Part shown: positions 42,637 through 56,930 of the stretch, in pieces
Layout: every line of letters begins with the position of its first letter
Numbering within the stretch: the stretch's first letter is position 1
Source of the DNA: Sulfuricurvum sp.
GTDB lineage: Bacteria > Campylobacterota > Campylobacteria > Campylobacterales > Sulfurimonadaceae
Direction of reading: 5' to 3'
DNA: 64,000 bases
Assembly (NCBI GenBank): GCA_030694265.1
Contig: JAUXYP010000001.1
Coordinates: forward strand, 496,001-560,000
Translations under genes and position numbers: made by a program
The notes under the pieces: generated by a model
Databases searched by the model: none
Seen by the model: only the letters and a program-made list of their open reading frames with translations
What the model was told of the DNA's origin: nothing

Positions 42637-42849
42637 TTAATAGCTCCCCTCCCCCACCGAAATCACATAATTATCATCCACTTCAACAGCCGTAAATGAA
42701 TGTTGCCCGCAAAAGCTTTCATTCATCTCCTGCGCCCACGCACGTGCTATACGCATTGCATTTTCTTTGTCATCCAAGGTTTTGATTTGAGGCATTTGTT
42801 TACGTCTTGCGCAGGCGCATAGTTTTTCAACAACAACATGATGATCCAT
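42637..42849 (-). CDS. Small nif-linked Cys/His protein, paralogue 2
   Basis: MDHHVVVEKLCACARRK...FCGQHSFTAVEVDDNYVI. Confidence 0.75.
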   Translation of the reverse strand: MDHHVVVEKLCACARRKQMPQIKTLDDKENAMRIARAWAQEMNESFCGQHSFTAVEVDDNYVISVGEGSY

Positions 42850-42860
42850 ACTATCCCCTT

Positions 42861-43082
42861 TTACTTACAGCCACAGCCGCCGCCGACCATACCGATAACA
42901 AAATTGTCATCAACACCGACAAGTTGAAACGTGTGTTTACCGCAAAAGTTTCCATTCATAAATGCGAGCTGAGTTTCTGCTGCTCCCAATGCATCACTTT
43001 TACTCTCATAAGTAGCGATTTGGGACAATCCCTCTTTTTTTGCACAGCTGCACAATTTTTCGATTACTACGTGATGTTCCAT
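42861..43082 (-). CDS. Small nif-linked Cys/His protein, paralogue 1
   Basis: MEHHVVIEKLCSCAKKE...FCGKHTFQLVGVDDNFVIGMVGGGCGCK. Confidence 0.75.
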   Translation of the reverse strand: MEHHVVIEKLCSCAKKEGLSQIATYESKSDALGAAETQLAFMNGNFCGKHTFQLVGVDDNFVIGMVGGGCGCK

Positions 43083-43127
43083 AATGTTTCTCCAATGGTG
43101 ATTTGAAGAATTAATGCATTTGGTGTT

Positions 43128-56099: not shown

Positions 56100-56930
56100 A
56101 TGGACAACATTATTGAAACAATAAAAAAAGAGATACGCAATCAAACCACTATCCCCTACTTCGGGCTAGGGGTATTTGAGGGTGTCATGACAAAAGAAGG
56201 TGAAGCCGTACCTCATGACAGTGATTCACTCATCCTTGCCATGAATGGCGGTCGTCCTATGGCACCACGGCTGATGTTTGAGTACTCACGTGCGGCAATG
56301 CACCTAGAACAGCGTCGTGGGGTTGAATACATGACACAGCTCATCAACCATATCTATACGAAACCGTTTGATCCAACACCGTTACATAAAGCTATCGTCG
56401 ACATGTTGCCACGCTATATCGTTGATACCAACCGTGATACCAAGTTCCAAGAGCTGTTGGCGTTTACACCGCATTGTCTACTCATCGGTAAATCACGTAT
56501 CATGGGTGATCTTAACCGTTATGAGACCTATGAATACGATGTAGAGAACCAAAAATACTTCCTAGTAGAAGATGAGGTACTCGATAACGCCAAAAGGATC
56601 CTCTTCAAACCGATGGGTTCACCCCTTCCTAATCCCACCTTTGTCATCTCCGATGCCGACTATGTCGATTGGCTCACTGAGGCAATGGGAGGATTTGCAG
56701 TACCAAAAGTACTAAAGACCTATCGAAAAGCAAAAAAATACCTCTTTTTAGGGACATCATTCGGTCACGATACGGACCGTATGGTTGCCAATGAGTTGAG
56801 CTTTGATCTCGAGGGCGGCTACGTTGTCACCGATGGACCACTGGGTAAAAAAGAGCAGAAGTTCATCGACAAACATCATATTGAAGTGATCAACATGTCA
56901 CTTCAAGAATTCATCCAATCATTTGTGTAA
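56100..56930 (+). CDS. SIR2-like protein, nif-linked
   Basis: PYFGLGVFEG..., LPRYIVDTNRDTKFQELL, VISDADYVDWL, KYLFLGTSFGHDTDRMVANEL. Confidence 0.65.
   Translation: MDNIIETIKKEIRNQTTIPYFGLGVFEGVMTKEGEAVPHDSDSLILAMNGGRPMAPRLMFEYSRAAMHLEQRRGVEYMTQLINHIYTKPFDPTPLHKAIVDMLPRYIVDTNRDTKFQELLAFTPHCLLIGKSRIMGDLNRYETYEYDVENQKYFLVEDEVLDNAKRILFKPMGSPLPNPTFVISDADYVDWLTEAMGGFAVPKVLKTYRKAKKYLFLGTSFGHDTDRMVANELSFDLEGGYVVTDGPLGKKEQKFIDKHHIEVINMSLQEFIQSFV

Follow-up and report, generated by a model that had tools for sequence, protein, structure and literature searches.

Nif-associated paralogues with an invariant Cys/His set in Sulfuricurvum: predicted accessory proteins of a sigma54-type nif regulon

Two small tandem genes a short distance downstream of nifK

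The window analysed here is a stretch of 64,000 nucleotides from Sulfuricurvum sp. (contig JAUXYP010000001.1, positions 496,001 to 560,000 of the forward strand). On its minus strand, two small genes, named here B and A, lie a short distance downstream of nifK. The first of the pair, B (42861‒43082, minus strand), encodes a protein of 73 aa of the form HHVV...CSC...FCGKH...GGGCGCK, which begins with MEHHVVIEKLCSCAKK and continues as ...NGNFCGKHTF...GGGCGCK. The second, A (42637‒42849, minus strand), follows 11 nt after B and encodes a protein of 70 aa of the form HHVV...CAC...FCGQH...GEGSY, beginning with MDHHVVVEKLCACARR and continuing as ...NESFCGQHSF...GEGSY. The two proteins share 34 identical residues out of 69 (49%, E = 2e-25). 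Upstream of the pair on the same strand, NCBIfam equivalog models identified nifK (43362‒44906; TIGR01286, 803 bits), nifD (44911‒46377; TIGR01282, 829 bits) and nifH (46945‒47859; TIGR01287, 418 bits). The arrangement given in the original prediction, that is, two tandem small ORFs after nifK with the protein of the first ending in GGGCGCK, was thus recovered. Two further conserved ORFs of the minus strand occupy the gaps of this region: orf61 (43128‒43313; approximately 61 aa, MSIQEKIK...) between nifK and B, and orf119 (46392‒46751; 119 aa) between nifH and nifD. Neither matched a Pfam or NCBIfam family.

Using exact peptide patterns, which recover close relatives only, we found B orthologues at 22 loci among approximately 85,000 species genomes. 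Nearly all of the carriers are labelled Sulfuricurvum or Campylobacterales; a single carrier is labelled Arcobacter and another Helicobacteraceae. The median dN/dS values (A, 0.063; B, 0.093) indicate strong purifying selection. Orthologues occur in over 20 genomes of Sulfuricurvum and relatives, which together with these low dN/dS values shows that A and B are real genes. The A gene of one Sulfuricurvum MAG (L009 3191‒3343) looks broken past the first 30 codons, due to either a frameshift or an assembly error. Where B lies away from nifHDK, it is often near the same gene, which by eye is aldo/keto reductase-like (four genomes; L086, L087, L092 and L097).

A family of approximately 70-aa proteins with invariant Cys and His residues

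A and B belong to a family of approximately 70-aa proteins that occurs widely across Campylobacterales, and many of its carriers are non-diazotrophs. In a sample of the order, 118 of 299 genomes carried at least one member, and under phylum-wide sampling the family matches were confined to the same order. The Sulfuricurvum sp. genome itself encodes two further paralogues, which lie next to an argF-like gene and within a signalling-gene operon, respectively. For the members outside the nif-associated clades described below (hereafter, general members), no gene neighbour was common across families, and a conserved position was detected in one family only. No viral carriage of the family was found; one distant general member is carried on a plasmid, a Sulfurovum mangrovi replicon, outside any nif context.

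In alignments of 45 and 43 members, the residues C11, C13, C47 and H50, together with A31, F52 and I63, were invariant, and both alignments showed the spacing CxC-x33-CxxH. As an early step had filtered on the motif, 20 extra short stretches were fetched in order to test the Cys/His invariance without this filter; the CxC and CxxH pairs were kept in all 21 of the more divergent members obtained. The conservation of the Cys/His positions, originally proposed from A and B alone, therefore extends across the family. The C-terminal tails, in contrast to this shared core, differ between groups: many general members end in CCGGGHC-like sequences, B in CGC and A2 (a third nif-associated type) in EACEL or EACEI, while A contains no Cys beyond the invariant set.

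Neither A nor B gave a convincing match to a Pfam or NCBIfam family, in agreement with the lack of a recognized named family noted at the outset. When the 45 relatives were scanned singly against the same collections, only scattered, chance-like matches were obtained, and these weak matches of single members were set aside, as any one family matched at most three of the 45 members. A literature search found no description of A/B-type genes.

A, A2 and B form an old clade associated with nif

In a tree of 91 members, built on an alignment of only 74 columns and hence with uncertain deep forks, A, A2 and B each formed a single clade (support of 92/86, 87/89 and 100/97, respectively), and the three were jointly split from the general members with support of 98/96. 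A divergent A2-like sequence located beside nifK in genome G089 grouped with A2. By this tree, the three types are paralogues of long standing. Since they fall into separate ancient clades, the tandem arrangement, for which a dosage effect had been suggested earlier, is not the product of a recent duplication for dosage.

We then compared the distribution of this clade with that of nifD. Within the sample of the order, nifD was present in all 15 genomes carrying A, A2 or B versus 55 of the 284 others (Fisher p = 1e-10), and the association was also detected within the host's own family (Fisher p = 3.5e-5), although both p-values are optimistic because the genomes are related. Phylum-wide sampling added eight clade-bearing genomes, seven of which contain nifD; the eighth, G478, carries nifE, and its contig ends at the place where the related genome G102 has nifK. 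Altogether, 23 of 23 carrier genomes are nif-positive. In contrast, the genomes with general members only (103 of 299) showed no association, with nif in 22 of 103 versus 33 of 181 (Fisher p = 0.54). Co-occurrence with nifHDK, which had been proposed as a check, is thus a property of the A/A2/B subfamily, found only in nif-positive genomes, and not of the family as a whole. Likewise, the original prediction named wide occurrence in non-diazotrophs as evidence against a nif role; such an occurrence is seen when the family is taken as a whole, whereas the nif subfamily does not show it. The converse relationship fails: many nif-positive genomes are without the clade, for example G159, G170, G248 and G276, which possess nifHDK but no A/B. 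The subfamily is therefore not essential for nitrogenase in general. Given that general members show no such link to nif, the core biochemistry of these proteins may be generic.

A sigma54-type promoter element upstream of B

Upstream of B, we identified a sigma54-type ‒24/‒12 element, TAGAACACCAAATGCA (43115‒43130, minus strand), which extends from 48 nt to 32 nt ahead of the start codon of B; the last bases of orf61 overlap this element. The same type of element was found in the window upstream of nifH (TAGAACACCCTTTGCA, 47895‒47910, minus strand), upstream of nifB, recognized by its NifB domains (AAGAACGCCAGTTGCA, 54068‒54083, minus strand), and upstream of a SIR2_2-domain gene at 56100‒56927 (AAGAACACAAAATGCA, 56052‒56067, plus strand). 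A weight matrix trained on nifH promoters only, taken from eight nif loci outside the host's family and without A/B nearby, picked the same element 45‒54 nt upstream of B.

Compared with known sigma54-dependent nif promoters, the element shows the expected GG-N10-GC spacing, and its form RGAA-N6-WTGCA is close to the Campylobacter jejuni sigma54 consensus GGaa-N6-tTGCTt (PMC3847290). It differs in that the ‒24 GG is often AG, the ‒12 element ends in TGCA, and there is no accompanying enrichment of TGT-N10-ACA. Within positions ‒62 to ‒25, the sequence RGAAY-N5-WTGCW was present in the upstream DNA of 32 of the 34 B genes and in that of no general member (0 of 22), against an expected 0.17% in random stretches; in these B genes the element (RGAAY-N5-WTGCA) lies approximately 48 nt before the start. 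The element was kept in genomes where B lies far from nif, at a distance of approximately 1 Mb (G102), 104 kb (G436) or 33 kb (G264), or on another contig (G089). Most A genes are located close behind B without an element of their own, and several A genes outside B‒A pairs carry the element or a near match. Across the whole 2.15-Mb genome, the strict form gave 12 matches. Seven of these, outside coding regions, lie in a 40-kb part of the nif region and precede B, nifH, nifB, the SIR2_2 gene, a Sel1-NifU-like operon, a PII-like gene and a sigma54 gene, while the other five are located within or at the start of ORFs.

Because B has its own sigma54-type element at 43115‒43130, the B‒A pair is probably transcribed as a nif-regulated unit of its own and is more than the last part of the nifHDK operon. 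A further correction to the original prediction is the presence of orf61 between nifK and B. The nif-specific expression of A and B is a well-supported prediction from these promoter patterns.

The nif region encodes the expected regulators, namely, sigma54 (Sigma54_AID/CBD/DBD domains) and a NifA-like activator of the GAF-AAA-Fis type (GAF-Sigma54_activat-HTH_8). The NifA-type site TGT-N10-ACA was detected upstream of two of 34 B genes, which equals the background rate and indicates no enrichment; the activator may use another site. The Sulfuricurvum sp. genome contains two sigma54 genes. The second is located in the nif region (L127 2‒1174, minus strand, near 577 kb) and has a nif-type element upstream. 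Two sigma54 genes were found in 14 of 20 nif-positive genomes versus none of 11 nif-free relatives, which suggests that the second sigma54 is nif-dedicated.

Predicted structure and comparison with known proteins

The AlphaFold models of A (pLDDT 89, pTM 0.76) and B (pLDDT 84, pTM 0.71) showed the same order of strand, short helix, strand, long helix, strand and strand, giving a compact beta-beta-alpha-beta-beta arrangement. In both, the loop that follows strand 1 carries CxC, and CxxH is placed between the long helix and strand 3. Foldseek searches against the PDB gave no significant match for either model. The best matches for both were Protein L B1 domains (TM up to 0.55), which share the beta-beta-alpha-beta-beta order of a beta-grasp-like fold, but the similarity is not significant (E of 0.03‒0.1 and worse) and the immunoglobulin binding of Protein L is unrelated. 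In a beta-grasp-like fold, the first hairpin turn and the loop from the helix to strand 3 are at the same end of the molecule. As both Cys/His loops would be at this end in a Protein L-type fold, C11, C13, C47 and H50 could plausibly meet in one site in the modelled proteins.

Three known protein types were compared with A and B. NifT/FixU (PF06988) is also a protein of approximately 70 aa of the nif regulon, and in classical nifHDKT operons NifT follows nifK. However, no PF06988 match was detected in A, B or any of the 45 members, and the genuine NifT, encoded elsewhere in the nif region (L126 13511‒13720; PF06988, 62 bits), is without the Cys/His set. The C-terminal zinc domain of Hsp33 (HslO) resembles A/B in its CxC...CxxC/H spacing (CxC-x(27-32)-CxxC in Hsp33 and CxC-x33-CxxH in A/B), but the last ligand is His and not Cys in all members of the A/B family, and A/B are stand-alone proteins of 70 aa. 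Homology to Hsp33 was rejected because the HMM matches were not significant (E = 0.061, and 0.17 for 1xjh) and the best 50 Foldseek matches listed for either model included no Hsp33 structure. The CDGSH/mitoNEET [2Fe-2S] proteins have the same ligand order, C-x-C...C...H, with three Cys and one His. They differ from A/B in having CxxxH in place of CxxH and approximately 8 in place of approximately 33 residues between the pairs. Membership was rejected on this spacing, which departs from CxC-x2-[ST]-x3-P-x-C-D-G-x-H; no family match was obtained either.

Possible roles of A and B

Taken together, A and B are most likely metal-binding accessory proteins of the nif regulon, the metal binding being predicted from the Cys/His set, and their biochemical role may lie in assembly, protection or electron transfer. 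To the full form of this interpretation, in which ancient nif-clade paralogues are switched by sigma54, hold one C3H metal site and play an accessory role for nitrogenase, we assign a probability of roughly one half. The sigma54 factor and the NifA-type activator of the nif region would switch on B‒A together with nitrogenase. The three Cys and one His would form a single site at one end of the domain, for either Zn2+ or an Fe-S cluster. More speculatively still, A and B may be dedicated accessory factors that help nitrogenase to mature or to stay active in microoxic cells, and may carry or sense metal or redox state at the C3H site. The extra Cys tail of B (CGC), absent from A, could then reflect a division of labour.

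Among the alternatives, we regard as possible, at appreciably lower odds, that the C3H set serves only as a structural site for zinc and that A and B are small adaptors binding nitrogenase or a nif regulator, with no Fe-S or redox chemistry. Three Cys and one His in CxC and CxxH pairs are compatible with tetrahedral zinc coordination. In sequence, the zinc domain of Hsp33 comes nearest, though not significantly (E = 0.06 and 0.17), and the family is widespread without linkage to redox partners. A structural site nevertheless leaves unexplained the extra Cys tails (CGC, EAC and CCGGGHC) of B, A2 and many general members. These tails would be in line with a role in trafficking or buffering of Fe, Mo, Cu or Zn at the higher metal demand that nitrogenase synthesis brings, and the regulon partners, some assigned by eye, include a Mop-like ORF and NifU-like and ferredoxin-like genes. 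We nonetheless consider such a role unlikely, as A has no Cys beyond the invariant set and the predicted fold is well ordered and not metallothionein-like.

A more specific version of the accessory role, in which A and B, made together with nitrogenase under the nif-dedicated sigma54, form a protection or maturation system whose C3H [Fe-S] or redox-zinc site allows N2 fixation with O2 in sulfur-oxidizing Campylobacterota, is at present doubtful. Sulfurimonadaceae isolates with nif clusters fixed N2 at 4% and 20% O2 (PMC11474244), and Sulfurimonadaceae is likely the same family as that of the host of A/B. A protective role is therefore worth testing. The same isolates, together with the spacing and weak HMM matches shared with Hsp33, could point to a thiol redox switch of the Hsp33 kind, in which the protein protects nitrogenase once oxidation has opened its metal site; with the Hsp33 matches not significant, and no Hsp33 structure among the best 50 Foldseek matches listed, we find this improbable. 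That A and B are housekeeping paralogues placed beside nifK by chance, as the general members in many nif-negative genomes might suggest, is very hard to reconcile with a separate clade whose 23 carriers are all nif-positive and with a nif-type element kept upstream of B even in genomes where nifD is 33 kb to 1 Mb away or lies on a different contig.

Nif accessory proteins govern which organisms are able to run nitrogenase and how much oxygen may be present when they do. The Campylobacterota nif clusters have apparently not been examined before for lineage-specific accessory genes, as the available parts of two reports on them (PMC4674564 and PMC11474244) discuss the standard nif genes and not A/B-type genes. 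A and B are ordinary as one more case of an uncharacterized accessory gene; their interest lies in regulatory and phylogenetic evidence of unusual clarity for a nameless protein family. They offer an invariant set of potential metal ligands, a compact predicted fold without a significant PDB match and a clear promoter signature. With a natural set of nif-positive genomes with and without A/B, their role can be tested directly in strains of Sulfuricurvum or Sulfurimonadaceae held in culture.

Other genes of the nif region

The operon of the nif region referred to above as Sel1-NifU-like is headed by a gene for a fusion protein of Sel1 repeats and a NifU-like domain (L126 1968‒2693, minus strand), and by eye it holds ferredoxin-like, Mop-like and NifX-like ORFs. 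In other nif loci, orf61 homologues are neighbours of A, A2 or B, and some have an element of their own. An ORF of the orf119 type (115‒125 aa) was present in the nifH‒nifD gap of every Campylobacterales nif locus examined with a complete nifH‒nifD interval, including those of families without A/B.
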